A stretch of 64,000 nucleotides of DNA from Spirodela intermedia (lineage: Eukaryota > Streptophyta > Magnoliopsida > Alismatales > Araceae). The translations under genes and the position numbers were made by a program. The DNA lies in contig LR746278.1 in assembly GCA_902729315.2 (NCBI GenBank), positions 2,501 through 66,500 of the forward strand, written 5' to 3'. Positions 1,926 to 31,443 of the stretch are shown in pieces. Below the pieces are notes generated by a model, which saw nothing but the letters and a program-made list of their open reading frames with translations, did no database searches and had not been told where the DNA came from. Numbering within the stretch: position 1 is the first letter of the stretch; each line of letters begins with the position of its first letter.

Positions 1926-2000
1926 TAAAAAATAAAAAAAATAAAAAAACCTAAACCCTAAACCCTAAAACCCTTAACGCTAAACCTAAACCCAACCCCC
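1926..2000 (+). repeat. A-rich tail and telomere-like tract
   Basis: An A-rich stretch interrupted by T is followed by several CCTAAA/CCCTAAA motifs, some degenerate, up to ~2000. It is the longest telomere-like tract in the window. Confidence 0.75.
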
Positions 2001-2002
2001 CT

Positions 2003-2166: not shown

Positions 2167-2205
2167 AGAAAAAAAAAAAAAAAAACCTAAACCCTTAAAC
2201 CTAAG
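2167..2205 (+). repeat. Poly(A) and telomere-like tract at the HSP90 pseudogene left edge
   Basis: An A-run with one G is followed by CCTAAACCCTTAAACCTAA, which abuts the first recognisable HSP90 codon at 2206. Confidence 0.7.
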
Positions 2206-3643: not shown

Positions 3644-3665
3644 CCCAAAACCCTAAACCCTAAAA
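3631..3665 (+). repeat. Poly(A) and telomere-like tract at the HSP90 pseudogene right edge
   Basis: The A-rich end of the pseudogene is followed by CCCAAAACCCTAAACCCTAAA. The retropseudogene is therefore bracketed by same-orientation telomere-like motifs. Confidence 0.75.
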
Positions 3666-7693: not shown

Positions 7694-7698
7694 AACTC
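7694..7698. repeat. Target-site duplication, left copy (AACTC)
   Basis: AACTC lies immediately before the solo LTR and recurs at 9437-9441 immediately after it. Skipping the element rejoins the LINE reading frame. Confidence 0.85.
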
Positions 7699-9436: not shown

Positions 9437-9441
9437 AACTC
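9437..9441. repeat. Target-site duplication, right copy (AACTC)
   Basis: Exact match to 7694-7698. The next codons continue the LINE RT region. Confidence 0.85.
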
Positions 9442-9649
9442 GAATGGGAAATCAAAGACAATTATAATGAAGATAAATTGAAGGAATACACTAAACTTAA
9501 AACAAAGGTAGATGATATAACCACACAACATAAAACCTTTTTGAAATAAAAAGCTAGAATCTATTGGCTAAAAGAGGGTGATGGAAATACCAAATTTTTC
9601 CATGCTACCACAAAATTAGAAAGAAAAACAATCCATTTAGCCATATACT

Positions 9650-10220
9650 AAAAGAAGCTAATAGTGAAGGCTCTCCTTTGTAGCATGGTGTATGGTGTGA
9701 AAAGAAAAATAAGGGAGAGGTCTCCACATGGTTGGGCTCTAAACCTAACACCTTTCTCTCTGTAGTGTGGCCTCTCATCATCTTTTCTACTGTGTAGTAC
9801 CAACTGATGGAATGAATTCTCAAATTGAAGTGATAGAAGATGTCACTAGAGTTGTGAACAAATCCCTTATCTCTATTATTTTGATGTCTTGACTTGATTC
9901 TAAGGGTTAAATCGAGCAATAATGTAGACAAGTCTGGATTCACACTATCCCGACCTTTCAATTGGGTGGCGGGACTAGGAAGCCAAGTGCCATTGCGAAT
10001 TCGTGTGGTCTTTGTCAAAGAGAAGTAGCGTGATGTCGTACCACAAAGATTCAGATTCTATGCTCTAACTCGTGTAGTGCAGGAAAACGTACAATTAGCA
10101 AGAAACAACCCTTGGAGGGGTGGGGAGACCTGAAGAAGGTACATCCATCTTCAACGACATGCAACGTTAATGGCGTTTTGGTGCATTGCATATAGAGGAA
10201 AGATAAGAAAAAACTATGCA
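9650..10220. other. Unidentified insert within the LINE RT region
   Basis: LINE RT similarity stops after ~9640 and resumes near 10230-10320. The sequence between is less A-rich than its surroundings and shows no LINE-like residues. No terminal repeats or target duplication were found, so its nature and exact ends are unknown. The long minus-strand ORF here has no recognisable domain. Confidence 0.4.
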
Positions 10221-12726
10221 ATGACGAACCATTCTCAAATTAAACTATTCAAAACAAGTTAGGACAAAGAGAGGGAGAGTGTATTATTATTTATCCAACA
10301 TATAGAGAGAAGGGATGAATCACTTCTCAAACTTACTACAAATAGAATCACAAAATCATAAGCACAAATTACTTGACGTAATCTCCAAATGTATAAATGA
10401 GGATGACAATGAAGCACTAAGTAGATTACCAAATAACAATGAAATTAAGAAAACAATATTCAACATGAGGAAGGATACTGCTTTGAGGCCGGATGAAATA
10501 GGTGTGAGATTTTATACCGAATGTTGAGATATAATAGGTGAAGATGTATGTCAAGCAATCAAAGAATTCATGTCATCAAACTCCTTATCACATTCATGGA
10601 AAGCTACATTCATTACTTTAATAACTTAACAATAATTACCGAAAAACTTCTCTAAATTCAGATCAATTAGTTTATACAATGTTTGTTACAAAAGAATTAC
10701 CAAAATACTATCCCAAAAACTTGAGAAAATCTTATCCAAAATTATATCGCCTAAATAAGGGGCTTTTTTGGAAGGAAGATCAATCACTAAGGACATTGCG
10801 TTAGTTCATGAAATCACCAAATCCATCAGCAACAAGATACTAGGAGGTAACATCGTATTAAAACTTGACATGGCTAAAGCATATGACATAATTGAATGGT
10901 GATTCATCATAGAAGTATTAGAAGAATTTGGATTTAGTAAAAAAATAGATAGAATGAATCAAAGTATGCATAGAGAACAATCACTTTTCTCTTATCATTA
11001 ATGGTAAATCTACACCTTTTTTACTCCAAGTAGAGGACTGAGACAAGGCGGCCCTATTCATAATAGTAGAAGAAGTAATGAGTAGAGGGTTGACAAAATT
11101 ATTTCAAGATGGAAACATCAAAAAATATACAATGATAAGAAATTGTCCACTAGTCTCACATGAATTATTCACGGATTATTCAACAATATTTACTAATAGC
11201 AAAAGAAATTCCATAAAAAAATTGATATGAAATTTCTAGCTGAATACAAAAAAATATCAGGGGAAAAGATTAATAAAAACAAATCAACATTCTTCTTATG
11301 TCAAAAAAGCCCAAAGAGAAGAGAAAAAAGAATCAAAAAACTAACTAGCTTCAACAAAGAAAATATGCCATTCACCTACCTCGAATGTCCAATCTATAAA
11401 TGAAGAACGAAACAATCTTATTTTGAATACATCCTAAAAATAAAGAGAAAAGTGGACTGATAAAAATCAAAACTATTATCACCAAGAGGGAGAATATCCT
11501 AATCAAAAGCATTTTGAGCAGCATCCCCATACATACCCTTGCTGTATATGATATCTCTACTAGCATTATTAAAAGAATAGAAAAAATGATGACAAAATTT
11601 TTATGAAGAGATATAGAAAATAGGGCGAAATATCACTAAATTTCATGAAAGTACATTTGTCAACAAATTGACGAAGGAGTATTAGAAATTAAAAGGATAA
11701 AGGACCAACTAAGATGTCTAAGAATGGAGATAGTATAAAGATGCAAAACAAAAACATCCTAATGATTCAAATTGGTTAAAATAAAATTTAAAGAATAGGC
11801 AATAGAAAAAATCTAAAATTAAAGGCCCTATAAGATGAAAAAGAATGCAAGAAACATGAATAGACATGAAAAATGTAGTAAGATGAGAAGTGGAAAAAGG
11901 AAACATTAATGTATGGAATGACAATTAGTCCAAAATGAGAATCTTAAACCAACTAAAAATGATCCACACTAATAGACCAAAAATGATAGTATCTTAATTA
12001 ATGGCAAGAAACTAGGAAGAAATCCTATACACTACATGAGTGAACATGAACCTCATAAAACAAATTGACAAAACATTCCACATTACAAACCCAAGAGAAG
12101 ATCTACGCATATGGCCATTAACTACAAGTTGAGAATTTAGTGTAAGTTCAGCCTAGGAATACTTCAAAAATAAGGGGTCAAAAAATTGATTGGGGAAATA
12201 GTATCTGAAACAAAATACTATCAACGAAAATCTCTTTCTTTATGTGGAATCTCCTTTTAAACTGCCTGCCATTAGACATGAATATTTGAAAATTAGGATT
12301 CAAATTTCCATTAAAGTGTGTATGATGTCCATAGAACCCACAAGAGGAAAACATGGATCATGTTTTCTTTAAAAGCAAATGGGCCATAAAATGTTAGATG
12401 TGGTTACTTCAAAAATGAGATCTATGGGGAGTTTGAGGTACCAATTGTAAAAACTACTTTGAACACATAATGTTTAAGAAGACAAGAACAAGAGAGAGAA
12501 CAACAAAATCAATGGTGCAAAATAAACATTTCGTGCTTATTGTGAGAACTATGGATAGGAAGGAAAAAAATACAAATGAATGATGATAAAATCCCCATAC
12601 CACTAATTATGCACAAATGTAAAATGTAGATGAAAAGCCTAGGATGAATGTAAACAAGAACCAAATAACCAACAAAGAAAAATTAATTCTACAAAGATAA
12701 GAAGTAGAGATTGAAAATGTTATATA

Positions 12727-13045
12727 TTACCCAGCAATAAAGATCATCAAATGGGTTCCCCCTCCAAAGGGTGAAATGAAACTGAACATTGATGGGGCAT
12801 CCAAAGGGAACCCTGAAACATTAGGAGGAATAATTCGAGATAACTCCATAAAGTTAATAGAAGCATTCTCAGCCCAATCTGAAATACTAACCAATATGGA
12901 AGCAAAATGCAAAGCACTAGATGATGGATTAAGATTATGTGAAAAACTGAACATATATAACATCGCAATAGAAACTGACTCAATGACACTCACAAATATG
13001 TTTAGGAAAAATAAATGTAACCAATGGAAATTACAAAGAACCTAG
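12727..13045 (+). pseudogene. LINE RNase H domain remnant
   Basis: An open segment contains KWVPPPKGEMKLNIDGASKG, then GGIIRDN, an EAKCKALDDGL-type helix and IETDS. This is the order of the RNase H domain found at the C-terminus of many plant LINE ORF2 proteins. The acidic residues D (NIDGA), E (MEAK) and D (ETDS) are present. It is part of a decayed element, not an independent gene. Confidence 0.85.
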
Positions 13046-13469
13046 AAATAAATTGAAACACAAAGACATAGAATCTTGGACTTGATTCTATGTCTTTGTG
13101 CACAAGACATATTTATCACACAGGCAACTAATCGGCTGATTGTCTAGCTAACTGAGCTTACTACAGGAAGAGGAGAAAATCTACAAATGTGTGCAAGATC
13201 TACCTTCGGAAGGGAAAAGCATATATAATTTGGAGCACTGGGGCATGCCATACATCAAGTGCACAAGACAAAGAAGGATCAAACCAAACCAAGAAGGATG
13301 AACTGAACAATAATAAGGATCATGAATGAAGGAGCACGATCTAGAAAGAACACAAAAATAAGTATGAAGACCCAATGAAGTGACAAGCAAAAAGATACAA
13401 CAAAAAGAACATACATAAGAAAATGAAAGGTACAACAAAGACTTAAATTGCTTCATCTTTACATACAAC

Positions 13470-13474
13470 ATAAG
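13470..13474. repeat. Target-site duplication, left copy (ATAAG)
   Basis: ATAAG directly precedes TGATAAG of the second solo LTR and recurs at 15190-15194. Confidence 0.8.
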
Positions 13475-15189
13475 TGATAAGTTTTCATTATCATCAGTAA
13501 ATAATTAATAAATAATATAGTTTTAGTATTAACTCATGATAAATAGATTTATATATGTGTTAAATTATGAAAAGTATATTTCAATTGATTAATGTGATTT
13601 TTTGGCTAATTCTGTGATTTTATATGATTTTTATAATTTTATTTTTGAGATAAATAAAGAAAAAGAAAATAAATAAAAACATAGAAAAAGGGTGGACCCG
13701 TCAGCCAACTAGGCCCGCAAGTGAGTTGGAAGTGCAATCAGGGCGAAGCTGCGAGCAGGGGGCTTGAGCAATTGTGGACCAATGGGGGCACATGTACGTC
13801 ACTCTCCTTGCACATCACTAGTAGTTAGCCAACTGTCGAGCAAGGAGTGGTCGTACACACACGAGAAAGGGACTCATTGCTTCTAAATCTGGTATTATTA
13901 TATATTTCTCTAAACCTTTAGCATACAATCGATGTGGGACTAAACCTACCTCACACTTTCTTTGAAATATCTCAAAGATTTTAATACCTAAAATACTCTT
14001 TATTTATAACAACGAGATATTATGACGATGTCACTATATAAGGATATTTAAGTATTTATTCACTCTCTCTCATGTAGGCAAGCAACAAGCATGGGTTCGA
14101 ATCCTACTAGAGTCAAAACTCGTATTTTTATCTAATTAAATCACGACTTTCTTGTAGATCGTCGATGAAGGATTAAGTCGCTAGAACCATTCAATCATCA
14201 GCGAAAATCCCATCAACGTGATTTGTGAAGTATTATTACTAAAATTATTAAATGATACATGACAAAAAGACTGTGAATCCACCTAGTAAATCATCTCTAA
14301 TTGATCGACGAGCAAGCCATCATCGGGAAGAGGACAATCTATCAAGAGATGATTCGCCACCTTCTAAGAGCGTACTAGATGTGATAAAGAGCCCTATGTT
14401 GTTGCGGGGACCTGAAGATGAAGCTTCCTAACACGTGCCCCACCTCCATCCAGCTCCTCTCTACTAGGTGACAATCGTTAGAGAGCCACAAAATCATCAT
14501 TTTTTCGCTCTGCCGGGTGATAGTCGTCGGAGAGGATTTAATAACCCATTTTATTGATCTTTAAACTTCACAAAAAGTTTTTGTCCAAGTAGAGCCTTTA
14601 GGGCCATGGACGCTACACAACATCCTCTCAAACACTCAAGATTTCAATACATCATTGACACATCACCACTTCGATGCCAGAACTCTATTTCCTACTTTTC
14701 ACTTAATTTTCGTTTCATTTAGAGATAATTTGTGTGATTAAAATTTTCTAAACTACTCTTCAATCAATTACAATACTTTCGACTTCTACGAATAATAATT
14801 TGACTAATTAAATCATTTGTAATTACTTATGTAAGAATCACCAAGTGAAACTCTATTTCTATCTGATTCACATTTGTCTGGTGCTGACATCATCTTGACG
14901 ATGCACCCTTATTTTTCTTTATTTACAAATTTTTAATATATTTTATTTTTCTTTTTTATTTTAAGATTTATAAAAAATTATATTATTTGATATTTTTTTT
15001 GAAATATTACGTGATAGTATATTACATCTCTATGATTGACTTGAGAAATTTTTATTATTTTTAAAACTTTTATTGAATTACAATTGATATATTTATTCAT
15101 AAATATTTTTAAATATCCAAATTTTAGTATTTTTAGTTTTATAAATTTTAAATTTCTGTGATTTACTGTACAACGACTAAGTCACGTCA
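13475..15189 (+). mobile_element. Solo LTR, copy 2 (1715 bp, plus orientation)
   Basis: Starts TGATAAGTTTTCATTATCA and ends ...AAGTCACGTCA, so it keeps a TG...CA structure. It is flanked by exact ATAAG duplications and is the diverged reverse complement of 7699-9436. Near 14094 it carries GGTTCGAATCC, a perfect match to a tRNA B-box, preceded by CTCATGTAGGCAAG; copy 1 has the matching site. No tRNA fold was established. The separate target duplications indicate two independent insertions. Confidence 0.82.
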
Positions 15190-15194
15190 ATAAG
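15190..15194. repeat. Target-site duplication, right copy (ATAAG)
   Basis: Exact match to 13470-13474. Confidence 0.8.
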
Positions 15195-16521
15195 TCATAG
15201 TGTTAATTTCATTCTTCAATGCTCGAATAGAAGGAAAAATCATCATGAATACATTATAAGGAGCAATAGACCATACAAAATAAAATAAAATAAAATTTAT
15301 GAAGATCATAGAATTGAACTTTGACAGCCCAAACTTGATGCCTTAATTATGAGAACAACATGATGATGATCATGGATATGGATGTGAAGTTTGAAGGGCA
15401 TAAACAAGCTCAAAATTCCACCCAATCATCCAAGAAGGCATGTATAAGTCAACGAATCAAAGTACATGAAGGAAGAAAAAAGAAAGAGGAGTGGAAGTGC
15501 CAACAGCCAATAATGTTCTCCCCTCCTCTCTTAGAAAAGGAGAAAAAAAAGGGGAAAAAATAAGAGAGAAGGTGAAAATGAGAGGGGAAAGGGACAAACA
15601 ATCAGTGAGGAAAATGCTACCCTTCTATCCAAAATACCTACCTCAAAGAAAGGATTCAAAGACAAAAGCAACCTCGAGGAAGAAAGGGTTGAAGGAAAAG
15701 CCTCAACAGACCCAAAAGTCTTCACACATTAGGAATGGTCGGAATCAATCTAATTGCAAGCAAAGAAATTAGGAACGAGCAAACAAGTGAATAGTTTATA
15801 CATGAATACTTCATAACTAATTAAAAGAACAAAAGACAAAAGAGGAAACCTAGAGAGAAATAAAGTTAGGAATCAACTAGGTGACCAGAGAAAGATTGAA
15901 AATGGATAAACAGTCCTCAATAAGAGGAACATCCTATTTTCTCCTGTATATGGTATACTGCAGTGCTTTTTCTTATTCGAAATGCAGGCCACAAGAAAGA
16001 AACAACACACAACAATCATTACAGAAACGAGAAGTTTAAAGGAAAAAGAGCACACAAAGTAATTCAAAGAAGAAAACAAGCCCCAAAACAAAAATTGACA
16101 AGGATTAGCAGCAGAGGAAAGGGCATCCCTAGCTGGAAAAAGATTACCCAAAGTCATGATTGCTAAGGTCTGAATGGTATGAAACACCTCAAAAACCTAA
16201 CTACCCAATGGCCGACTCAACGACCTCCAATCGGTTCAACAACCTCAAACTCAAGACCGTCAACCAAAGTCAAGATCCAAAAACAATAGGCCCAACAACT
16301 AGAAAGAAAGCTCAATAATATGCCACATTATGCAAGACACCCAATAGTAGAAGGACGAAATCAACGGCCATACTATCAAATAGGGAACCAAAGGGGCTAC
16401 ACAAGTTTAACTAAGGGGTCATTTAGTATCTGTAATTCTATTCCCCAAACTCAATAAATTCAAAGAATGATCCAAAATGATGTATAAATCATGGATCATC
16501 AATCAATGAACTACTTTTGAG
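15195..16521. other. Purine-rich DNA, unidentified
   Basis: Plus-strand A/G-rich sequence with overlapping Lys-rich ORFs (for example 15491-15772) that show no recognisable domain and probably reflect base composition. It may be remnant retrotransposon leader or gag-proximal DNA, but nothing diagnostic was seen. Confidence 0.5.
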
Positions 16522-16550
16522 AAAAAAAAACCCTAAACTCTAAACCCTAA
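16522..16550 (+). repeat. Poly(A) and telomere-like tract before the gypsy remnant
   Basis: Nine A residues are followed by CCCTAAACTCTAAACCCTAA, then a motif AAGGAGAAGTTT that recurs three times up to ~16670. Confidence 0.7.
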
Positions 16551-19438
16551 GGAGAAGTTTGCTCCTCTACAACTAGACTCTTTGGAGCAGTATTCAGCTA
16601 AGGAGAAGTTTTCAGCAAAGAGATAAGTTGTGTGATGGAGGACTAACAGAATCAACTAAGGAGAAGTTTGTTCCAGACCAATCTAGCCCTCCGCTAATTT
16701 TGGAGCTACTACCTTCACATATGAAGTATGCATTCTTAGGCTTAAACCGCTCATCTCTTGTAATTATTTCATCATCATTAACATGTGATTTGGAAGGGAG
16801 ATTAGCAAGATATTGAAGAAGTACGTAGCAACGATTTGATAGACTATATTGGATATACAAGGCATTAGTCTTGAGGTATGTATGCATTGTATTTTTATTG
16901 AAGATAATGCTCGACCAATGAGAGATGTGCAGCGAAGATTAAATCCAATGATGTTGGAGGTAATCAAGGTTGAGATCATAAAGTGGTTAGAAGTGGGGAT
17001 AATCTATACAATATCTGGCACCATGTAGTTAAGTCTCATTCATATTGTTCCAAAAAAATCAAGTATAATAGTTTCTAAAAATACAAAGGGAGAAGATACC
17101 TAAATAAGACTCGGTACTAGCTGATGTATTTGTATTAACTATAGAAAGCTCAATCAAGTAACAAAGAAAGATCCTTTTTCTTTACTCATTAATGATCAGA
17201 TTTTAGAATGTCTTGTAGGACAATACTATTTTATTTTTTTAGATGGTTACACAAGTTATAATTAGATTAAAATTTGTCCAGAATATCAAGAGAAGACAAC
17301 ATTCACTTGTTCATTTGGAACATATGCATATACAAAGATGCCATTTGGATTATGCAATGCATTAGCAGTATTCCAAAGATGCATGAATGCATTTTTTTCT
17401 AATTTAGTAGGATATTGTCTTGAAAATTTTATGGATGATTTTTCTATATTGAGATAAACTTTCAATGATTGTTTAATAAATTTGACTAAAGTGATGTAAA
17501 TTTGTGTTGATAATTTGCTCATTCTAAGTTGAAATAAGTCTCACTTTATGATAAGGAAGGCGTGGTGTTTGGGCATGTAGTCAGTCAGCATGGATTAAAA
17601 GTCGACAAAGTAAAAATTGAGATAATCAAGAATCTTCCTCTATCTACTTCTCTTAAACAATTGTGTGCATTCTTAGGACATAGGGTTTTCTAGAAAATTC
17701 ATCAAAGGATTTACAAATTTAGCTAAAATCCTCACTGAATTACTTTTTAAATATACTAATCTTATGATTAGCACCAAAGGAAAAGAAGCTTTCATGAATT
17801 GAAACAAGCATTGATAGAAGCCCCAATTTTACAGGGCCTTAATTGGTCTTACCTTTTTACTGTAGGAGCAGTCTTAAACCAGCGAATTGATAAGAAATTA
17901 GTCATGATTTCAAGTAAAACTCTAGCTGATGCCCAATTAAATTACATTACTATAGAAAAAGAGTTATTGGCTATTATCTTTAGATTGAAAAAAATTCGAT
18001 CATATTTGTTAGGAACTAAGGTAATTGTCTATACAAACCATTCAACTATCAAGTTTCTTTTAGTCAAGAAGGAAGCTAAATTGAGATTAATTTGATGGAT
18101 ACTTTTATTACAAGAACTTGATTTAAACATCAAAGACAAGAAGGGTAGCAAGAATTATGTCACAAACTATTTAACTAGACTTTCATGTATCTACCAATCT
18201 GCCTATTTTAGACTATTTTCCTACTTAATATTTATTAAAAGTTGATACATGTGCACTGCCATAGTATGCACATATTGTGAATTTTTTGATGACAAGTCGT
18301 GCCCACAAGTTGGTAGAGCATGAGACCTAAGTTCCTCAATGACCTTAAGGTTTATTTTTAGGAAGAACCTGAATTATTTCATTTAATAATTGATCAAATC
18401 TTGCACCAATGTGTGCTTGAAGAGGAACAATTCAGCATACTAACCGTGTTTTATTCTTCAACATGTGGAGGACACTTTGAATCTAAGAAGACTACAACAA
18501 AAAAATTATAATGTGGATTTTATTGGCCTACAATTTTTCAAGATTCTCATCAATTTTCAAGACATATGTCACATGACAAGTCTTGGTAAACATCTTGAAG
18601 AAGGATGCAATGCCCCTTAAGTCAATTTTGAAGGTAGAAATATTTGACCTTTGGGGATAGATTTTATGAATCAATTTTCTTTATCCATAAGTAATGAATA
18701 CATTTTATTAGCCATTGACTATGTTTCCAAATGAGTAGAAGCCATCTCCACTATGACCAATGATCATAAAATTGTATGCAACTTCACTGTGTATAATATT
18801 TTTTCTAGATTTAGATGTCTGCATACTATCATTAGTGATGGCAGATCTCATTTTAATAATTTTTACTTTTAGAATTTACTTTAAAAATATAGAGTGCAGC
18901 ATAGGATGATGACTCCCTATCATCCTCAAGCTAATGGATAGGTGGAATTAAACAATAAAGAACTTAAAAAGATCTTGAAGAAGATCATATGGCCTAATGG
19001 TAAAGATTATGTCAAGAAGCTTCTTAATGTGCTATGTGCTTATAGAATAGTGCTTAAAAATTCAATTGTCATGTCTCTTTTTCACCTAATTTATGACAAA
19101 GTATGTCATTTACCTATAAAAATTGAATATCAGACATATTAGGCCATCAAACAACTTAATCTTTCTTTAGATCATGCAAGAAATCAACATGTTCCTTCAG
19201 CTGCAAGAATTACAAGAGTTAAGAAATAAAGCTTACGAGAATTCTAATATCTACAAGGTCAAGCCTAAAGTATTTCACGAAAAAAAGATCAACCATAAAT
19301 TATTCTTTTAAAAGGAAAATATTTGGTTGTATAATTCTCATTTAAAATTATTTTCAGGTAAACTCAAATCTTGTTGGGATGATCCATTCGTCATTATGCA
19401 GAGTTTTAGCTCAGGAGCTGTAACCTACCACCACGCAT
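16551..19438 (+). mobile_element. Decayed Ty3/gypsy retrotransposon pol region (Athila-like)
   Basis: Domains run in Ty3/gypsy order. The protease/RT linker (LLPSHMKYAFLG-like, ~16700) comes first. RT follows with a INYRKLN-like segment (~17130), FLDGY (~17235), a TKMPFGLCNA-like segment (~17330) and the FMDDFS active-site region (~17430). RNase H-like sequence is at 17799-18095 (with YTNHS). Integrase follows with IDFMNQF (~18655), a D-containing IISDGRSHF (~18830) and TPYHPQANG (~18910). Numerous stops disrupt it. No LTR, PBS or PPT is visible. The 3' side stops abruptly at ~19430, where duplicated GATA-gene sequence begins. Confidence 0.88.
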
Positions 19439-19568
19439 GAATGACCCTCGGGGCCTCAAGGTAACCTGTCACCACACATGAATGAACTCGCTTGCCCCCT
19501 TTTTCTAGTAGATAAGATACTATGTCGGTTCCCCTCAATATCCGAGGCCTTTGTTTTCCATGTACGGG

Positions 19569-19863
19569 ATATCTGGTGCAGTCTCTGTGCAACGCATGCG
19601 GCATCCGCCACAAGAAGGAAGAGAGGCGCGCCGGCTCTTTCGCGGGCAACCCTTCATCCACATCTTCCTCCACCACATTGTCCACAGCTTCGCATCTGGA
19701 GCTACCGTCTAACCATCTTCAACAGGCAGTCGGATGTGGCTACCAGAATCCGTGGACGTGCCCTACCTTTCCTGGGGGTCAAACATTCCCGCTTCCCACC
19801 ATGCGGCGGAGTTCTCACACAGCCTCCTCTGAGCCAGTTGGGAATTCCGGGGCAGAGCGTTGA
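19569..19863 (+). pseudogene. Orphan exon 2 of a HAN-like GATA factor
   Basis: An acceptor-like TGGTGCAG is followed by codons for SLCNACGIRHKKEERRAGSF and the C-terminal tail, ending in TGA at 19861-19863. These match exon 2 of the intact gene at 28765-29046. Only the last ~17 bases of exon 1 are present, so half of the zinc finger (the CANC knuckle and LWRNGP loop) is missing and no GATA protein can be made here. The exon lies between the gypsy remnant and the duplicated glycosylase promoter region. Confidence 0.9.
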
Positions 19864-20134
19864 TCCGTCCCTGAAAGAAGGCTAAAACCGTGAAAGATGG
19901 GACGACCACTTTCTCTTCCTGCGCCGGCGGATCAAGATTAGTTCCGACAATTGTAGTCCTTCTCCCAACGCGTACGCGCTTCCTGATTGGTTTAGAGGCA
20001 GGAGGTGAAACCCAAGACGGCGCCCGTGGATGGTTCCTTCTCGCATTGCTGCTTTCCGTCTCAAAGACTAGTATTTTCTGCCCTCACTCTCCAGTTTTGT
20101 ACGCGAGAAACAAAAATGTCCATTCAAATATCTT

Positions 20135-20165
20135 CGGGGGGGGGGGTGGGGGGGGAGGGGGGGTG
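20135..20165 (+). repeat. G-rich tract, copy A
   Basis: Near-continuous G with single T and A interruptions, within the ~1.33-kb almost identical block. The identical tract occurs at 29318-29348. Confidence 0.85.
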
Positions 20166-20879
20166 TGGATGAGCGGGGATGGCCTTGCTCGTTTGTCCTT
20201 CATCAGGGATGCTCTCTTGTTGTCCAAAATCAAGCTCTTGAAGGTGACGGCGAAAAGGCCACGAAGAAAGGCGAGTACTCGAGATTGACCGATCCACGCC
20301 GAGTACAATGACAGCGAAGTGGACGGCCGAGGGTGCCATGCCAGCGCATAGTTGGGCCGAGGCTAAGCCCAAAGGGTGGCAGGCCCATTTTTCTTTTACA
20401 CGTCGGAAAAGTGCGAGAGATGCTCTAATTTATCCAAACGACGACCAAATGGGCTATGGGCTTACAGTCGAGGCCCAGATAACTGATGAGTATGGGGGTG
20501 ACCAGGCACAGAAGAGTTCCCATCGCCTGCCTACCCGTTCGGCATATCGGTGGACGTCTATACTTTAAGAGACGGAAATATTTCCCCACAGACGGAGAAC
20601 CATGCCTTCGAATTTCGGGGCTTCATCATAAAAATAAATCCTCGGTACGTGCCGGGATGTCCTCAAATGTGCCGATGACATTTTGCACGTGTGCTTCTTG
20701 CACAAGAGTAGGTGGGCTGTTTGGGAGTAGGGAGGTGTTCAGCGAGAGAGAGAAGGGGGATTCCAAGACTGCAAGAGAGCTTGTGGCATCTCCCCTGGAG
20801 GAGGGAACAGCGTCCGCATCAGCCGCGGCGGTGGCTGTCGCCGATCCCTCTCTCTCCGCCATCCTCCACAATCTAATCG

Positions 20880-22832
20880 ATGTCCAACCCCCAGCCGCAG
20901 GCTTCCCAGCCGCAGTCCAAGGCTACGCAATCCTCTCAATGTCCAATTCCCGCTTCCCTCATGGCATCCGCACCGCCACCGACGGCCCCATCGGCAGTGC
21001 CATCGCCGGGAGTCGGATCTCCCCATCCCGCTCCATCCACTCCTTTCTTGTCCCACGTTTCCACATCTGACCACAACCTCAGTATCAACCCTAGCCACAA
21101 TCCCTCTGCCTCCGGCGGCTCTGCCGGAAAGCCCGATCTCCCAACCACGGCAACGGAATTGGCTGCCGCGGGGACGGCCCCCTCGAATGGCCCGACGAAG
21201 ATCCCGTTCCGTCCCAGAAGGACAAGGAAACTCGCCGCCACCTGCTCCCCCGCCAAGCCAGAGACTGACGACAAGGTGGATCCCGGCGCTGCCTCTCAAG
21301 AAGGCAACAATGGTGCCATAGTTGTCGCCGGGAAAGTGGTGAACCACAACCATCCACGGGCAGTCTACCGCGTGCCACTTCGCCACCTGTTCACCCTCCT
21401 CATCCTACTCATGGTCGTCATAATCATCGAGGCGAGCCGCACAAGCGGCGATGACCTCTACCAGCTCTGGCACGATCTTTGGTACAATCTTTTCGGCTTA
21501 ATTGTTTGCTCTACCTTCCTCTTATTTGGCTCCACTGTCTATTGCATGACCCGCCCTCGCACCATCTACCTTGTCGACTACGCCTGCTACCGTGCGCCAG
21601 ATGCGCTCCGTGCCCCCTTCAGCAAGTTCATGAAGCACTCTAGGTTGAGTGGTGCCTTTGATGAATCGTCCCTTGAGTTCCAGCGCAAGATCCTTGAGCG
21701 CTCTGGGCTTGGTGAGGAAACATACTTCCCTGAGGCCATGCACTGCCTGCCGCCCCAGCCTTCCATGGCTACTGCACGTGAAGAGGCTGAGCAAGTCATG
21801 TTTGGTACACTCGATATCCTCTTCTGCAATACTTCTGTTCGGCCGAAAGACATTGGCATCCTGGTGGTCAACTGTAGCTTGTTCAACCCCACGCCGTCCC
21901 TTTCTTCCATGATTGTGAATCGGTACAAGCTTAGGGGCAACATCCTCAGCTTCAACCTGGGTGGTATGGGCTGCAGTGCTGGTGTTATTGCTGTTAACCT
22001 CGCAAAGGACCTCCTTCAAGTCCATAGCAACACCTATGCCGTTGTTGTCAGCACTGAGAACATCACCCAGAACTGGTATTTTGGCAATCGCAAGTCCATG
22101 CTCATACCAAACTGCCTCTTCCGTGTAGGTGGAGCAGCTCTTCTCCTGTCCAACATTGCAGCTGACCGCCAAAGGGCCAAGTACAAACTTTTGCATGTTG
22201 TCCGAACCCACCGAGGAGCTGATGACAGGTCATTCAGATGCGTTTACCAAGAACAGGATGACACGGGCAGGGTTGGTGTCTCCTTGTCTAAGGATCTTAT
22301 GGCTATTGCTGGTGAGGCCCTTAAAACGAATATTACGACCCTTGGGCCTCTTGTCCTGCCCATTAGCGAACAACTACTTTTCTTTGCAACACTTGTGATA
22401 AGGAAGTTATTCAACGCCAAAGTAAAGCCCTATATTCCAGACTTCAAGCTCGCATTTGACCACTTCTGTATCCACGCGGGAGGTAGGGCAGTGATCGATG
22501 AGCTAGAAAAGAACCTTCAGCTCCTTCCGATCCATGTGGAGGCCTCCAGGATGACCCTGCACCGTTTTGGGAACACGTCATCTAGTTCCATCTGGTACGA
22601 GCTGGCGTACGTGGAGGCTAAGGGGCGGATGCGGAGGGGAGACCGCATCTGGCAGATTGCATTTGGGAGTGGGTTTAAGTGCAACAGTGCCGTCTGGCAG
22701 GCTCTCCAAACTGTTAAGCCTTCTCCAAACAACCCGTGGCATGACTGCATCGATAGGTACCCTGTGGAATTGGCGGATAGTGTAACAGTTGTGGAGATGG
22801 AAAAAACAGCAGCCTTTGTGTCAGCGCATTGA
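20880..22832 (+). CDS. Chimeric ORF: AlkA-derived N-terminus fused to 3-ketoacyl-CoA synthase (KCS11-like)
   Basis: An uninterrupted 650-codon ORF. Residues 1-~168 match the Pro/Ser/Ala-rich N-terminus of the AlkA-like glycosylase at 30064, including [12 protein letters not shown]. From ~169 to the end it is a FAE1-type KCS, the condensing enzyme of very-long-chain fatty acid elongation at the ER. Two hydrophobic segments (~169-187 and ~203-222) match the usual KCS membrane anchors. The active-site set is present: Cys365 in GGMGCSAG, His532 in [11 protein letters not shown], and Asn565 in [10 protein letters not shown]. Typical KCS proteins are ~460-510 aa with a short N-terminus; here its start is replaced by ~168 foreign residues. 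The upstream DNA is the duplicated glycosylase promoter region, so expression probably follows that promoter. Whether the fusion is translated as one protein or starts at a later Met is unknown. Confidence 0.9.
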
Positions 22833-25420
22833 TAAAGCCGCTCTCGTGTGCATTGTTGAGTCCATGGACATTTAACTCCATGCCACATGTCTGATTCATC
22901 TGTCTTCTGTGGTTTCCTTGGAAACTATAGCCTCTCTATTTCTTTTCTACTTTCCACGTGGTTATTCATATCACATACCTGACGGTTTCTGTGCTCGAGT
23001 CATTCTTAAGGTGTCGTCATTGTCAAATTATGTTTGGAAAACGTCTCTCTGTTTGTGCTGTGAATTTATCTCTTTTGTGTCCACATTGAAAGGGACGACA
23101 TACCATGTGCTATATGTCCCGTTTGTGAATCGTAATTTATTTTCTTGGGCTGTATGACGGTTAGAATTTTCGATTCCCAAATATGAACATCAATTATCAC
23201 ACAGAAAATGTGGACACCGAAGAGATTTTCTGAAATTTCGCTGTTTCTAGTGCCAAGCGCTCTAGTTAGACGCCCTCTTCTTCCATGACTATTATCCACA
23301 ATCCAGGATAACTCAAATTGATTGTTTCGCTGTGTATGGTTTTCCTTGACCTGTCATTAGTTCATGTCTAGCTTTTGTATTCTTCCTTTACACAGTTTAA
23401 TCAAAATCATAAGAGAAAGAATCTTTAGGATTCTGAGGATTTTGTACTGATTTGCGTTTGAGAGTTAAATGAGCTAGTTGCATAAAACTTCAAACCTTGT
23501 ATGCTGATGTTATTACCATTCTCGCTATCCCTTATTTCATGGAACTCTTCCTTTCAATGTGGCGATCTTATCAGGTACATCGGAAAGAATATCCATCTCT
23601 CTTTTTCTTCTGCATAAGTTTGTTATCCCCTACGTGCAAGAGGAAGTGGTTGTAGGTTTGCAAGAGGCAAAGCGTGCAAATGTTCGGTACGGTAGAGCAT
23701 CCTTACGTGATACAAGGCAGCTCTTCATACTCAGGAGCATGGTCGAGTCCGTAGCCATTGGTTCACGTCCCTACCCATGGGATTCACATGTTCTGTCAGT
23801 TGCCAGTGGTGAGAAAGAGAATGGAGAGAAAGTTTACTACCTGATGTCTACCACAACCAGGTAGATATGGACCACTGCTACATGATCTCAGCTGAATCGT
23901 TGAGAGGTTGTAATTGCCTTGCCTTTCTTTCAACTTCTCGTTTCCTACTTTCTTCTCTCCTTCTTCCCCACTTTTCTTGGAACAAGAGTCTAGTGATTCA
24001 ATGAGTTCAGAAGATGTTTTTACAGCTTACTGAAAATTAGGATAACCTTTGATGCTTTTTTAATTGCTTCTGAAATAGGATTGGTACTTTTCTTAATGTT
24101 TAAGCAGTAAAATCCATGTGAATCTACTCGAAGTGATGTATTTGGATGGAAACAACGAGCAAGATGACTGACAGAATTTTCCTCAATAGAGCTTTTGGAC
24201 CAAATTATCCTGACGACTTTTAAGTAACAAAAAAGTAGTGTAATAAACTTTTGTGCATGGGCAACACCAAAAAAGTAGCTTTCACTTGAGTGGAACTTGG
24301 AGGCCATAAAATTAAATTGGACTAACAAGGAATTATTTTTATCCTAGAAGGTGCCTTGTGACATAAACACAAGAACCGTGTATAAAGGAAGTCATTGCCA
24401 TCCTGAGTGCAGAGATACTGTTCTAGAACCGTCAAAAGTTTTCTCATTATTTCCGAAATGTCCGCGGTACGACAGCGGTGCTCCCTGATCATTGATTCAT
24501 CCGACGGTGCTGCTATATGTCATTGTAGCTGTTTACGATGGAGGCTTTGTTAAAAACATGGAGCCGGCGGGCCACAGGATTAAACAGTAGGTCTCTCTTT
24601 TTCTCATGTGATGAATGCACGGGCATCATGTGATTATTTCATTCTTCGTCCGCTTGGTTGCTTGCCTTCCATCGATCAATCTATTGCTGGGTACGAGTTT
24701 TATTTATCACATAACACAAATTTGTTGGCTCCGCCATTTGAAAAGCTGAAACATAATTCCCCCATTTGATGATATTCGAATGAGAGCGTTGAATACAGGA
24801 AGATAATACAGATAAGCCAAAAGAAAACGGGCTTTTTAGGTCCTCAGTTCATGCCAAAGCCGCCAATAAACCCTCATAAATTGATTTCTGCAACTTTTAG
24901 TCTCCCGAAACTGTTCGATTATGATTTTTCGGGTATTACGGTTTGTTCTTTGACCGAGTTCTCAGTGAACTAACAGAAGAAATTATCGTCTTACGCTGGC
25001 TTTAACGAACAGGGGTCACAACAGAGAAGGGATGAGTGCGGGACGGCGAAACAACGGAGAAAACCACCAGAACGATGGGAGATGGGGGGTGCTAGCGTGA
25101 GCAGTGAAGTGGCAGGGAAGGAATGGCGGCAACGGGGGGAGGCGGTAGGACTCACCCGGATGGGCCGCATAAGAACATTTCTCTTATATTCTCCCTTCTC
25201 TGTCGATCCCTCGTCCAGGAGGACAGGAGGAAACCATAATAACGAATAGTTTTGGTGCCACAGAACTGCGGGAACTTGCGGACGCTTTCCGGAGGATGAG
25301 AAGAAGGAACTCGAACATGCGTCAGTGAGTTTATATCGAGTTTTTCTGAGTTGCTAATATCTGAACTGCATTAGCAGACTCAGGAGCCCCGCACCCACCA
25401 GTTGCACCCATTTCTTTAGG
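22833..25420. other. 3' flank of the KCS chimera and intergenic DNA
   Basis: The KCS 3' UTR presumably covers the first few hundred bases. The rest is AT-moderate intergenic DNA with short ORFs (for example 23559-23864) lacking recognisable domains. No duplicated counterpart was seen at the downstream locus, consistent with copy A similarity ending at 21384. Confidence 0.5.
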
Positions 25421-27900
25421 TTGTATTTTTTTTTTTATTTTTATTTTTTCTTCTTTAGGTTGTATTTGTCGTCGAAAAAGTACCGTTCGGGTAGCTTACT
25501 GACTAGCGTGGTGTATCTATTTCACGGCTTATTTACCGTTCTTTTACTTGTCTTCAGAGAGAATCGGCGGGTTTTCCCTTCATATTCATATGCCCGACGT
25601 GAAATCCCCCTTGCTACACTGTCGCACACACTTTCTTCCTGCCCGTTGACTACATCGTCGTGGGTTTTTTCTTCGGCAGTCCACACTGCCAAATAGAGAG
25701 AGCTCTTTATGTTTCCTCGGGTAGCTTCGTACGAAGTGGCGAAGCCGCGCATACGCATGCTGCCCATGGGCTCGAGTGCCGCATAGAGGCGGCGGTCGTG
25801 TTCTCCCCCGCGGCGGATTCCGGGACGGGTTGATCTTCGGGCTCGGTCTTTAAGGTGGTTGGTGAAGGTCTGGCGGCATCTTTCGGAAAGCGGTGGGCAA
25901 GCCCGAGGGAGGAGCCCCAGACGATCAAATCCCGAGCCTCGTTGGAACCTCGCAGTGCAGTGATGGGAGATCAGGTCCCTGATCTCTATGCGGCAAGAGG
26001 TGGGGGAGGCTCCCCCTCCAAGGGCTCTGTCGAATTTTGAATGCTCTCAGTACGCTAACCGTGCCACGGCCGACGAGGAGATGGCTAAACAACAGTAATG
26101 GGTTCCACCCACGGCCTCCAGTCGTCTATCATCGTGCTCGCCCTTTTGTTGCCTAGCTTTTCTTTCCGACTTTTCTTTTCTTTAATTTACTTTCTCAGAG
26201 AAAATTTAAATCGCCTCTCTAATCTCGTTTCCTTCGATGCGTGGACTGCCTGTTTCTGTCGGACGGAAGAAGTTCGATTGTGTAGGACGCGGCTGTAGTG
26301 GCGGGTCCTCACGTAAGCTCTCTCTCTCTCTCTCTCTCTCTTCCCCCTCCCTACCCACGAAGGAAGACCTGCTCGCGTGCCACTGTTTGAAGCAAGTATA
26401 CAAGAGTATATCCATATGCCGGTTGCTGCGGGATTGTCTCTCCGTCTGTCTGTCTAGACTCGTTGGCGATGAAAAGAGTAGAATGGGCTAAAGAGTAACC
26501 ATCATCGCATGAAGCCCCACGGCCGGTGCCCTTCTTGGGAGCTTGGAGGTAGGATCCCATGGGGACGCATTGTTGAGGATGACTAAGATGATTGCTACCT
26601 AGGTATGGCTTTCTTTTTTTCAGCTCGATCGTTCGATGCGCTCGAGACGGATAGCAGGAGGCGGAAACAGGAAGGAGATCGATCAATATCTTTGTTGTAC
26701 TCCGGGGGATCAGTCTTCGATTTTCGCTTCCGCACGCCGCCGTCTTCTTTCGCTGAGACGTCAGAAGACAAGCAGGTACAGACGTAACCAGCCCCATTAC
26801 GGGGCACCATGGCTCTGAGTGACGGAGATATCTGCCGTGCGTTGGCCGGCTGCCTCTCTCAGGGGGGCCTCGAAGTCCCGACATTTGAAAGCCTCGGACC
26901 GCGCACGCCCACGTGTACTTGGTTTGTTTACTCTTGTTCTCCCGCTCCGTTGGGAAGCGCGGGGAATGAAACCGGAGATGGTTGCCCTTGTCCGTAAATG
27001 TGAACAGATTCCGCTCTTCGGAAATCTCTCAATTTTCCTGCCTTGAAGATCCTCTAACCATCTGGGGGGTTCCGTTTTCCTTTCTCTTCTTCTGCTGCCA
27101 GAGAGTAACAGGACATGACCAGCCGTTTACTGTCTGTCTCCTTCCTCCGCTTCCGTACCCACCGTGATCGGGAAACAATGCATCTCGACCTGGAAATGGA
27201 TAATCGCTATGGAAGACCGTCCCGAAAGTCACGTGGGCTCCTTTTGACTGCCGGGCATCGTCTGCCGTGCCTATGTTTCAATCCCTTGGGGTCCCTTCCT
27301 ACGACCGCTGGCTGCCCTCTGCCTGACTCTCTGAGCAGCAGGCGATCGGGATCACACGCCGCTGCAGAAAGCTGAATGACGAGCCGCGTTGCACGTCACC
27401 GCCAGGGTTGCGACCACAAGGAGCTATCGATAGAGACCCAAAAACCGAGGAGCGTGGTTCCAATTAACTGGCCTGGGCGAGATTTAGGGCCGAAGTGAAG
27501 AGAGCGAGAGGGAGGGGAGGGGCATAAACGACGGAGAGAGACACTGAAGGTGTGAGTGCCAAACGGCGTGGTCTGCTAGCTCTCCCGACGACTGACCTCC
27601 CCCCCTGGGACACCCATCTCTCTCTGGTGCCTCCCTATTCCTCTCTCTCAAAAGTTAGCCGCGAGTTTCTTTCTTGTCCGAGAGGAAGAGACAAACTTAC
27701 CAGGAACACTCCTTCCACCATCGAGAATGCAATGCGAACATTTCCTTCATACCAGTCGCTTCACTGTTTCATGACTGTGTCCAAGGGAAACGAAAACTTT
27801 CCCTTCGACCATCGACTACGGAGGAAGGAGAAGCCGCAAACCCGAGTGACATCTCCAGAGAGAGGACCTAGGTAAGTGAGGTTACATTATAAATACTCCA
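25421..27900. other. GC-richer region upstream of the GATA gene, no supported CDS
   Basis: Many overlapping short ORFs on both strands, none with recognisable domain content. A CT microsatellite lies at ~26318-26342. The region may be promoter or long 5' leader of the HAN-like gene, or an unrecognised gene. I could not support a coding model. Confidence 0.4.
26318..26342 (+). repeat. (CT)n microsatellite
   Basis: About twelve uninterrupted CT dinucleotides. Confidence 0.9.
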
Positions 27901-28065
27901 CGTGTCCACATATAAAGCTGGAGAGCAGTATTGCTGCTCCGATAGCCGATACTCTGTGCCATTAAACCCCGTTTGGCCTTCGTACTCCCTTTTGCAGCCA
28001 CCGGCTCTTACCCTCCTTGCATCCTTTCCGACTCAAATCCTTCGCTCAGGGAGAAATCCGACAGA

Positions 28066-28095
28066 GAAGGGGAGAGAGAGAGAGAGAGAGAGAGC
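28066..28095 (+). repeat. (GA)n tract in the GATA gene 5' leader
   Basis: A GA run followed by CAGCTGCAGCAGCAGCAGC, about 60 bp before the ATG at 28154. GA/CT tracts close to starts are common in plant 5' UTRs and can bind BPC/GAGA-type factors; that role is an inference here. Confidence 0.75.
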
Positions 28096-28153
28096 AGCTG
28101 CAGCAGCAGCAGCTTTGTCCTTCCTCGTGAAGTGACCATCAAAGGTAGCAGCG

Positions 28154-29046
28154 ATGCAGAAGTGCAGTACGCACAGAAGACGCTTCTCGTCCCAGGATCA
28201 AGGAAGCGCATTGATGCCATGCTCGTGTGGACTTTCCCGAGGCATGGGTGGTCGCTCGGGGTCGTTCTCAATCTTCTTAGCTCCGACCGGCTTCCATGGA
28301 CAGCCAGAGGAAGGGGACAGGTCCTCCTCTCAGGTTGACTGCACCCTTTCCCTGGGAACACCCTCCACAGGCCACCAGTCGAAGCCCCACAGCAAGGCCT
28401 CGACGCTGTCTCTTATCTCGCAGCAGAAACCCCACAACTACCCACTCCGTTTCGATTCCATGCCCTTCCAGCCCGATCAGACACCGTCGACAGAAACAGG
28501 TGGAGGTTTGATCCCCGCCATTAGAGAAACAGGGACGGGCGGCAGTAGCTTCAACTTAGGAGGAGACCCTCTGCTTGGTCGGAGGTGTGCTAACTGCGAC
28601 ACTACCACCACACCCCTATGGAGGAATGGCCCTCGGGGCCCCAAGGTAACCTGCCACCACATGAATGAACTCGCTTGCCCCCTTTTTCTAGTAGATAAGA
28701 TACTATGTCGGTTCCCCTCAATATCCGAGGCCTTTGTTTTCCATGTACGGGATATCTGGTGCAGTCTCTGTGCAACGCATGCGGCATCCGCCACAAGAAG
28801 GAAGAGAGGCGCGCCGGCTCTTTCGCGGGCAACCCTTCATCCACATCTTCCTCCACCACATTGTCCACAGCTTCGCATCTGGAGCTACCGTCTAACCATC
28901 TTCAACAGGCAGTCGGATGTGGCTACCAGAATCCGTGGACGTGCCCTACCTTTCCTGGGGGTCAAACATTCCCGCTTCCCACCATGCGGCGGAGTTCTCA
29001 CACAGCCTCCTCTGAGCCAGTTGGGAATTCCGGGGCAGAGCGTTGA
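28154..29046 (+). CDS. HAN-like GATA zinc-finger transcription factor (two exons)
   Basis: Exon 1 is 28154-28645, the intron 28646-28764 (GT...AG, 119 bp), and exon 2 28765-29046. Both exons are in phase, giving 257 aa. The splice joins GPRGPK to SLCNACGIR and completes a single C-x2-C-x18-C-x2-C GATA finger (CANC...LWRNGPRGPK...CNAC). The N-terminus has PCSCG and SIFL-type residues and VDCTLSLGTPS, recalling the HAN-domain proteins (HANABA TARANU; NL1/TSH1 in grasses), which act at organ boundaries and in inflorescence bract suppression. The assignment to the HAN clade rests on these short motifs. HKKEERRA after the finger departs from the more usual FKKEERRA. It ends about 1 kb before the glycosylase on the same strand. 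Only exon 2 was carried into copy A. Confidence 0.88.
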
Positions 29047-30063
29047 TCCGTCCCTGAAAGAAGGCTAAAACCGTGAAAGATGGGACGACCACTTTCTCTT
29101 CCTGCGCCGGCGGATCAAGATTAGTTCCGACAATTGTAGTCCTTCTCCCAACGCGTACGCGCTTCCTGATTGGTTTAGAGGCAGGAGGTGAAACCCAAGA
29201 CGGCGCCCGTGGATGGTTCCTTCTCGCATTGCTGCTTTCCGTCTCAAAGACTAGTATTTTCTGCCCTCACTCTCCAGTTTTGTACGCGAGAAACAAAAAT
29301 GTCCATTCAAATATCTTCGGGGGGGGGGGTGGGGGGGGAGGGGGGGTGTGGATGAGCGGGGATGGCCTTGCTCGTTTGTCCTTCATCAGGGATGCTCTCT
29401 TGTTGTCCAAAATCAAGCTCTTGAAGGTGACGGCGAAAAGGCCACGAAGAAAGGCGAGTACTCGAGATTGACCGATCCACGCCGAGTACAATGACAGCGA
29501 AGTGGACGGCCGAGGGTGCCATGCCAGCGCATAGTTGGGCCGAGGCTAAGCCCAAAGGGTGGCAGGCCCATTTTTCTTTTACACGTCGGAAAAGTGCGAG
29601 AGATGCTCTAATTTATCCAAACGACGACCAAATGGGCTATGGGCTTACAGTCGAGGCCCAGATAACTGATGAGTATGGGGGTGACCAGGCACAGAAGAGC
29701 TCCCATCGCCTGCCTACCCGTTCGGCATATCGGTGGACGTCTATACTTTAAGAGACGGAAATATTTCCCCACAGACGGAGAACCATGCCTTCGAATTTCG
29801 GGGCTTCATCATAAAAATAAATCCTCGGTACGTGCCGGGATGTCCTCAAATGTGCCGATGACATTTTGCACGTGTGCTTCTTGCACAAGAGTAGGTGGGC
29901 TGTTTGGGAGTAGGGAGGTGTTCAGCGAGAGAGAGAAGGGGGATTCCAAGACTGCAAGAGAGCTTGTGGCATCTCCCCTGGAGGAGGGAGCAGCGTCCGC
30001 ATCAGCCGCAGCGGAGGGCGTCACCGAACCCTCTTTCCCCCGCCATCCTCCGCAATCTAATCG
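29047..30063. promoter_or_regulatory. GATA-glycosylase intergenic region (probable glycosylase promoter and leader)
   Basis: About 1 kb between the GATA stop and the glycosylase start, with a G-rich tract at 29318-29348. It is duplicated almost without change at 19866-20879, upstream of the chimeric KCS. No TATA box or defined operator was identified. The promoter role is inferred from position. Confidence 0.5.
29318..29348 (+). repeat. G-rich tract, copy B
   Basis: Same tract and interruptions as 20135-20165. Confidence 0.85.
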
Positions 30064-31443
30064 ATGTCCAACCCCCAACCGCAGGCTTCCCAGCCGCAGT
30101 TGAAGGTCACAAAATCCTCTCAATGTCCTATTCCCGCTTCCCCCATGGCATCCGCACCGCCACCGACGGCCCCATCGGCAGTGCCATCGCCGGCAGCTGG
30201 ATCTCCCCGTCCGACTCCATCCACTCCTTTCTTGTCCCACGTTTCCACATCTGATCGTAACATCAGTATCAACCCTAACCACAATCCCTCTGCCTCCGGC
30301 GGCTCAGCCGGAAACCTCGATCTCCCAACCACGGCAGCGGAATCGGCTGCCGCGGGGACGGCTCCCTCGAACGGCCCGGCGAAGATCCCCTTCCGTCCCC
30401 GAAAGACAAGGAAACTTGCCGCCGCCAAGCAAGAGACTGACGACAAGGTGGAGCCCGGCGCTGCCTCTCAGGAAGGCAACAATGGTGCCATAGTTGTCGC
30501 CGGGCCAGTGGTGATCCACAACCATCCACGGACAGTCTACCGCGTGCCACCTCGCCCCTTATCAGCGCAAGGCGAGGTCGCCGCCGCCATTGGTCACCTG
30601 CGCTCCGCCGATCCCCAGCTGGCCCAGGTCATCGATGCCCACGATCCGCCCGTCTTCCAGAGCCTCCACCCGCCATTCCACTCCCTGACGCGCAGTATCC
30701 TCTACCAGCAGCTAGCCTTTAAGGCTGCGGCCTCCATCTACTCTCGTTTCCTGGCACTCTGCGGCGGTGAGGATGGCGTCGTTCCCGAAGTCGTGCTCGG
30801 TCTCAGTGCACATCAGCTGCGTCAGATTGGGGTCTCCGCTCGCAAGGCCAGCTACCTGCATGATCTCGCCAACAAGTACAGGAGCGGCATTCTTTCCGAT
30901 TCGTCAATTGTGGCTATGGACGACAAGTCACTTTTTACTATGCTTAACATGGTCAAGGGAATTGGTGCCTGGTCCGTTCACATGTTTATGATATTTTCCC
31001 TCCACCGTCCTGATGTTCTCCCCGTTGGAGATGTTGGCGTGCGCAAGGGAGTTCAGCTCCTATATGGTCTCGACACACTCCCCAGACCATCCCAGATGGA
31101 ACAGCTCTGCGAAAGGTGGAAACCCTACCGCTCCGTAGGCTCCTGGTACATGTGGCGGCTTGTGGAAGCCAAGGGCATGCCGGCGGCGCTGGCAACAGTG
31201 TCCTCTGGTGCTGCTGTAATGGTAGCTGCCAATGGAGGATCAATTGAGGCTTCGCAGATTGTTGGAGTTCCGTCAGCACTTCCGTCGCACCTGCGGCAAC
31301 AGATGCCCCAACAACACCAGCATTTGCACCCGCCCCAGAATTTACATCCCCACCAGCATCAACATCAGCAACAGCACCAGCACCAATTGCAGATGCAGTC
31401 TCAACTGGTTGATGTAATTCACAGCATCCCAAATCTTGGCTGA
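30064..31443 (+). CDS. AlkA-like DNA-3-methyladenine glycosylase (HhH-GPD family)
   Basis: A single open frame of 459 aa. Base-excision repair enzymes of this family remove alkylated bases from DNA, in plants in the nucleus. The N-terminus (1-~165) is Pro/Ser/Ala-rich and low-complexity, with KIPFRPRKTRKL, a motif familiar from plant AlkA-like proteins. The catalytic HhH-GPD domain spans ~180-380 and includes LTRSILYQQLAFKAA, the hairpin MVKGIGAWSVHMFMIF (Gly299, Gly301, Trp303) and LPVGDVGVRKGVQ with the likely catalytic Asp323. WRPYRS-type and SWYMWRLVEAKG residues follow. The tail (~415-447) is His/Gln-rich. The N-terminal region is duplicated into the KCS chimera. No intron is needed. Confidence 0.92.
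   Translation: MSNPQPQASQPQLKVTKSSQCPIPASPMASAPPPTAPSAVPSPAAGSPRPTPSTPFLSHVSTSDRNISINPNHNPSASGGSAGNLDLPTTAAESAAAGTAPSNGPAKIPFRPRKTRKLAAAKQETDDKVEPGAASQEGNNGAIVVAGPVVIHNHPRTVYRVPPRPLSAQGEVAAAIGHLRSADPQLAQVIDAHDPPVFQSLHPPFHSLTRSILYQQLAFKAAASIYSRFLALCGGEDGVVPEVVLGLSAHQLRQIGVSARKASYLHDLANKYRSGILSDSSIVAMDDKSLFTMLNMVKGIGAWSVHMFMIFSLHRPDVLPVGDVGVRKGVQLLYGLDTLPRPSQMEQLCERWKPYRSVGSWYMWRLVEAKGMPAALATVSSGAAVMVAANGGSIEASQIVGVPSALPSHLRQQMPQQHQHLHPPQNLHPHQHQHQQQHQHQLQMQSQLVDVIHSIPNLG

Follow-up and report, generated by a model that had tools for sequence, protein, structure and literature searches.

A fused reading frame in Spirodela intermedia that joins the N-terminus of a DNA glycosylase to a 3-ketoacyl-CoA synthase

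Plant fusion genes are well documented. The available text of one survey of four Oryza species reports 310 fusion genes, more than 44% of them expressed, and among them a class (Type II) of fusions with one detectable parent (PMC9199173). The fusion gene described here lies in a window of 64,000 nucleotides of the duckweed Spirodela intermedia, the whole stretch that was analysed. It is a further case of this known way in which genes arise, and it would count as Type II: it derives from a duplicate, has one detectable parent and lies next to that parent. It differs from the Oryza fusions of the same text in that a near-identical tract upstream of it suggests later gene conversion and in that its second parent, a 3-ketoacyl-CoA synthase (KCS), was not found. 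What appears unusual is that, after the fusion, the upstream region was apparently made near-identical to that of a DNA-repair gene, in a genome where we found no unfused KCS of the close type.

Each half of the gene has a well-defined counterpart. KCS4-type synthases share with the fusion a complete catalytic domain, the Cys/His/Asn set and two membrane helices. The best KCS match outside Spirodela among 22 protein matches is of this type, a Colocasia protein (P0003) with an ordinary N-terminus that is 84% identical to the fusion over 483 aligned positions. In the fusion, by contrast, the KCS4-type's own N-terminal segment has been swapped for a 166-residue tail derived from a glycosylase. 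Plant HhH-GPD DNA-3-methyladenine glycosylases (mag2-like) share with the fusion its first 166 residues and the DNA upstream of them, but they have the HhH-GPD domain and the fusion is without it. Literature searches on KCS N-termini, chimeras, structures and Spirodela KCS returned nothing on point among the matches listed. We moderately favour the account that the gene is a tandem-duplication chimera with a constrained KCS half and an upstream tract that was later converted.

The fused frame and its surroundings

The fused ORF (20880..22832, forward strand; from the ORF list, Pfam and an AlphaFold model) is a single frame of 650 codons with an ATG start and no internal stop. It consists of 166-168 codons from the N-terminus of a neighbouring HhH-GPD glycosylase, followed in frame by a KCS4-type 3-ketoacyl-CoA synthase that begins inside the first membrane helix of the KCS. 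The ORF, the Pfam matches and the alignments all bear out the original prediction that one 650-codon frame joins these two proteins. The glycosylase-derived part (20880..21384, forward; codons 1-168) is rich in Pro, Ala and Ser, is predicted to be disordered to residue 160, and holds a 12-bp stretch that is absent from the intact glycosylase. The KCS-derived part (21385..22832, forward) comprises the remainder of membrane helix 1, helix 2 and the complete catalytic domain.

The source of the N-terminus is an intact HhH-GPD DNA glycosylase gene of 459 aa (30064..31443, forward; Pfam), which was expected 9.2 kb downstream and is found there. BLASTN aligned the duplicate at 19439-21388 to the source at 28624-30559 with 96.4% identity over 1,951 columns. 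Homology to the glycosylase stops and homology to KCS begins at 21384-21388, which confirms that the duplicated DNA ends where the KCS begins, a boundary earlier placed at 21384. There is no N anywhere in the 64-kb window, the fusion junction included.

The duplicated DNA also carries part of a GATA-factor gene. At the source, this zinc-finger gene (28154..29046, forward; 257 aa) has exon 1 at 28154-28645 and exon 2 at 28765-29046 by predicted splicing, and its zinc finger is complete only after 28645 is joined to 28765 (61.4 bits spliced vs 28.6 unspliced). At the fused locus a copy of exon 2 without the rest of exon 1 lies 5' of the fusion (19582..19863, forward), accompanied by no more than the final bases of exon 1. 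All three genes (fusion, GATA factor and glycosylase) have a common orientation, and the repeats are spaced 9.17-9.18 kb apart.

The fused gene is about 23 kb from the contig end and is perhaps subtelomeric; the contig starts 2.5 kb to the left of the window and begins with N. At 1447-1856 the window has an array of 4.5 units of 92 bp, and degenerate AAACCCT repeats come after it (1946-1993). It also contains a pair of 1.7-kb inverted repeats that are 4 kb apart and 75% identical (7703-9436 and 13475-15185), and two frames matching the N-terminal and C-terminal parts of a proteasome alpha-type subunit (55091-55768 and 58763-59350, respectively). An Rfam search of the window gave no match, and a bacterial-type promoter scan, which has no bearing on a plant gene, gave nothing.

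Origin of the fusion and the missing parent

The geometry of the locus makes an origin by tandem duplication fairly likely. The starting order would have been KCS, spacer, GATA, glycosylase. If a unit of about 9.17 kb, with one end inside the KCS (now 21385) and the other inside the glycosylase (now about 30556), was duplicated in tandem, the glycosylase front would have been fused in frame with the KCS back, the GATA gene standing before the chimera and the intact glycosylase after it. The full upstream KCS and the rest of the first unit would then have been lost, leaving the chimera as the sole gene of the close KCS type found. The ends of the duplicate unit coincide with the fusion junction and the copies have the same orientation. 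According to the available text of a study of arthropod chimeras, fusion by tandem duplication results in reversed segment order (PMC13389597), and tandem duplication fits here because the order is reversed as that text states. Among the features of a tandem chimera, the in-frame junction and the downstream parent fit, and no upstream parent was found. A comparison of 1-19438 with 21389-28623 gave three short matches, the best of 28 bp at an expect value of 0.008. Since there is no clear trace of the first unit upstream, the tandem step rests on the geometry.

The fusion could also have arisen if a GATA-glycosylase segment had been inserted 5' of the KCS as a dispersed duplicate, by template switching or with the help of a mobile element, and the KCS front had been lost; we regard this as possible, though doubtful. 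It would agree with the lack of any trace of a first tandem unit, and a decayed Ty3/gypsy-type integrase remnant with stops (18204..19438, forward; recognised by eye from its translated frame) adjoins the left edge of the duplicate. There is precedent in rice: of 19 expressed fusions for which one parent was detectable, 18 are attributed in the available text of the Oryza survey to a copy inserted beside the other parent (PMC9199173). Against insertion stand the adjacency, the orientation and the exact unit geometry, and the tandem model needs no deletion of the KCS front. Moreover, there are no inverted repeats of at least 40 bp in the interval 15-40 kb, none of 13 shorter inverted pairs lies at both edges, and no convincing terminal repeats were seen at the edges of the duplicate.

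Whichever event joined the two genes, the segment LPDFLQS...KYVKLGY that precedes helix 1 is gone from the fusion and glycosylase sequence stands in its place. Among the full-length KCS frames of the genome, the five closest (L015-L019) keep this segment or a close form of it. Five more distant KCS frames (L021-L023, L026 and L027; L025 was left out of the comparison) are also without it, so the segment is no marker of the whole KCS family.

Searches for the remainder of the KCS parent covered a 136.5-Mb assembly. With the fused protein as query, no unfused parent was seen among the 28 matches listed, which include the fusion itself, the glycosylase and separate exons. The nearest KCS of the same genome is an old paralogue (78% protein identity; dS 1.77, near saturation; dN/dS 0.077). 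A search with an ordinary KCS N-terminus returned 10 matches with expect values of at most 10. Ninth among them was the fused locus, which aligned only from query position 14, without the LPDFLQS part; two others (C4:6870870 and C16:78606) are close to KCS exon matches. No detached KCS N-terminus was recognised among these 10 matches, not each of which was inspected. In this genome, then, no gene of the close KCS type was found apart from the chimera. At C9:1861533-1862033 (L042) a KCS gene is cut by a long run of N, and the 1,857-aa open frame that seems to hold this KCS piece proved to be an artefact of the gap.

The predicted product and its start site

Pfam places FAE1_CUT1_RppA at residues 221-510 of the fusion and ACP_syn_III_C at 527-607, with scores of 470.6 and 45.7 bits against cut-offs of 27 and 26.6. 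It finds no HhH-GPD domain in the fusion, and so no glycosylase activity is expected. The Cys/His/Asn set, which the original prediction had called intact, is present in full as C365, H532 and N565, which we take to be the catalytic residues of KCS. The title of PDB entry 9uu4 describes an inactive C222A mutant of maize CER6.

An AlphaFold model of the fusion built from 69 sequences reached a mean pLDDT of 75.7; it replaced a first model from 26 sequences, which was poor (mean pLDDT 40.8). Residues 1-160 are disordered in the model (pLDDT block means 28-40), in keeping with the disordered N-terminal domain proposed earlier. They are followed by helices at 164-187 and 190-224 and by a catalytic domain that mostly scores above 85. 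The six best PDB matches of the model are KCS chains of the maize CER6-GL2 and CsKCS6-CER2 complexes, with TM-scores to the target of 0.92-0.96. The most likely product on this model is a very-long-chain 3-ketoacyl-CoA synthase that is membrane-bound and carries some 160 disordered residues as an N-terminal tail, and we infer that it has retained enzyme activity.

Full-length translation is predicted with modest confidence. The long product is favoured because only a start at Met1 or Met28 leaves membrane helix 1 whole; read from either, both N-terminal membrane helices of KCS are present as hydrophobic stretches and as predicted helices. The context of Met1 is poor (T at -3 and T at +4). The intact glycosylase and its relative P0001, a glycosylase 94% identical to it, start at the same Met1, and the context is likewise poor in the intact glycosylase.

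It is rather unlikely that the glycosylase part serves as mere leader DNA, with transcripts that start within it or ribosomes that start at the in-frame Met178 (21411..21413, forward) to give a 473-aa KCS without the tail. This reading would be consistent with an annotated S. intermedia protein of 473 aa (P0002) that matches from Met178 and equals residues 178-650 of the fusion apart from two differences in 473, with the poor context of Met1, and with KCS4 models of 446-469 aa in other plants (among 120 of 249 matches listed), one of which (P0154) has its start at the site homologous to the junction. However, the available text of PMC7645714 has the S. intermedia gene models made by similarity with GeMoMa, and because that method is similarity-based the start of P0002 says little about the true one and may be a choice of the model. 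A start at Met178 cuts membrane helix 1, keeping only residues 178-187 of the predicted helix 164-187. On a full transcript, ribosomes would moreover have to pass Met1, Met28 and three out-of-frame ATGs, one of which, at 21310, has A at -3 and G at +4. No protein that spans the junction was seen among the 22 protein matches (357-1,137 aa), judged from the coverage, identity and domain columns, or among 120 of the 249 matches listed (about 149-472 aa), judged by the coverage columns.

Age, constraint and the near-identical upstream tract

Between the N-terminal copies 22 of the 162 aligned residues differ and a further 4 form an indel, a result that corrects an earlier count by eye of 28 of 165. 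A dN/dS for the glycosylase-derived half, which the original prediction had called for, is 0.53 over the 162 codons with both branches taken together (dN 0.069, dS 0.130). When P0001 served as third sequence, the 161 compared residues included 14 changes specific to the fusion, 8 specific to the intact glycosylase and 8 specific to P0001; by these numbers the duplication split would be roughly as old as the split from the species of P0001. The difference between 14 and 8 is not significant (p = 0.29), and the comparison of leader with coding divergence gave p = 0.12. Because the fusion and P0001 both keep the 4 residues, the 12-bp difference is probably a loss in the intact glycosylase and not a gain in the fusion. 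It is the only indel in the coding part, as first described; outside it there are two smaller gaps, one of 1 bp in the leader and one of 2 bp at the left edge of the duplicate. Fusion-specific changes seem denser near the junction (4/17 vs 11/145, p = 0.055), a hint from a comparison chosen after the data had been seen, and two of the near-junction changes go towards the KCS consensus (I to N at 155 and P to L at 167).

That the fusion has persisted for some time is supported by the dS of 0.13 between the N-terminal copies; the open frame, which had been offered as an argument, is weak evidence by itself. In neutral simulations with substitutions only (indels left out), the N-terminal half stayed free of stops in 55% of runs at 0.065 changes per site (43-70% over 0.04-0.09), and for that reason its open frame alone is little proof of selection. 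The KCS half stayed free of stops in 7% of such runs at 0.065 changes per site (19% at 0.04 and 3% at 0.09). Among 245 columns that are invariant in 22 other KCSs, the fusion has changed 4, and leaving out each of the 22 in turn gave 0-8. The neutral expectation, which rests on dating the fusion by its N-terminal copy, is about 34 changed columns at 0.065 changes per site (Poisson p ~1e-10). Given that dating, the KCS half has been under purifying selection since the fusion, because so few invariant columns changed relative to the number expected under neutrality.

Divergence from the source is distributed very unevenly along the duplicate. The left edge (19439..19475, forward), which holds the end of GATA exon 1 and the start of its intron and by eye maybe extends about 15 bp further left, differs at 3 of 35 sites plus the 2-bp gap. 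The leader directly 5' of the start codon (20807..20879, forward; site-by-site alignment) differs at 10 of 73 sites plus the 1-bp gap, and the coding stretch 20880-21377 at 39 of 486 plus the 12-bp gap. Between the left edge and the leader lies a tract over the promoter region (19476..20806, no strand assigned) that differs at one of 1,331 sites from its counterpart at the source locus (28659..29989, no strand assigned), whereas the duplicate outside it is 8-14% diverged (Fisher p = 2e-26). The longest run without substitutions is 1,041 bp, a length that none of 20,000 shuffles reached (maximum 396). A long G-rich run lies at 20136-20163 within the tract and also at the same place in the source copy.

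Near-identity between diverged homologous flanks is a hallmark of gene conversion and is present here; the right border of the tract carries most of the weight, because the left flank is just 35 sites. Provided that the locus is real, this putative conversion tract is likely to be due to conversion and not to an error of the assembler. The donor was probably the source locus, where the GATA gene runs unbroken through the tract and splicing completes its zinc finger. The original prediction held that the upstream region came with the duplication and gave the KCS a new promoter. Upstream DNA was indeed carried along, but the promoter region is now almost base-identical to the source amid diverged surroundings, and so was either overwritten later or mis-assembled.

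An assembler might in principle have created the junction, or the near-identical tract alone, and we consider this improbable. G-rich runs are badly handled by short reads, and one lies inside the tract. A hybrid assembler could lay the short-read contigs of one locus on the other, and the matching published assembly, of S. intermedia clone 8410, was made by MaSuRCA from Illumina super-reads and nanopore reads, as the available text of PMC7645714 states. However, the 39 differences in 486 coding sites mark the N-terminal copy as a separate sequence and exclude that the source was recently copied and joined wrongly, the junction contains no N, and an error in the tract would require that the fused locus's own reads were missing or overruled over 1.3 kb. 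That the fusion destroyed the gene and left a decaying pseudogene whose frame is open by chance is very improbable: the fusion has indeed lost the segment that the genome's five closest KCS frames keep, and the N-terminal half would be open by chance about half the time, but 4 changed invariant KCS columns contrast with about 34 expected, the KCS half is free of stops in only 7% of neutral simulations at 0.065 changes per site, and the window and P0002 have only two residue differences in 473.

In the favoured account, then, the KCS half would have been kept under purifying selection after the tandem duplication, and a 1.33-kb stretch upstream would later have been overwritten from the glycosylase locus by gene conversion. 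The outcome would be an elongase whose upstream region matches that of a DNA-repair gene almost base for base. A bolder reading, which we offer only tentatively, is that the full fused protein is made, that its tail replaces a conserved KCS segment, and that repeated conversion keeps both promoters near-identical, so that the elongase is co-expressed with the DNA glycosylase.

The locus seems to offer a clean and datable example of a single event that replaced the promoter region of an enzyme together with its N-terminal part, with no unfused parent found. Should the fused protein be made, then the N-terminal segment that its nearest KCS relatives have kept is replaceable. If the upstream identity is real, it suggests that conversion can keep the regulation of two unrelated enzymes linked after a fusion.
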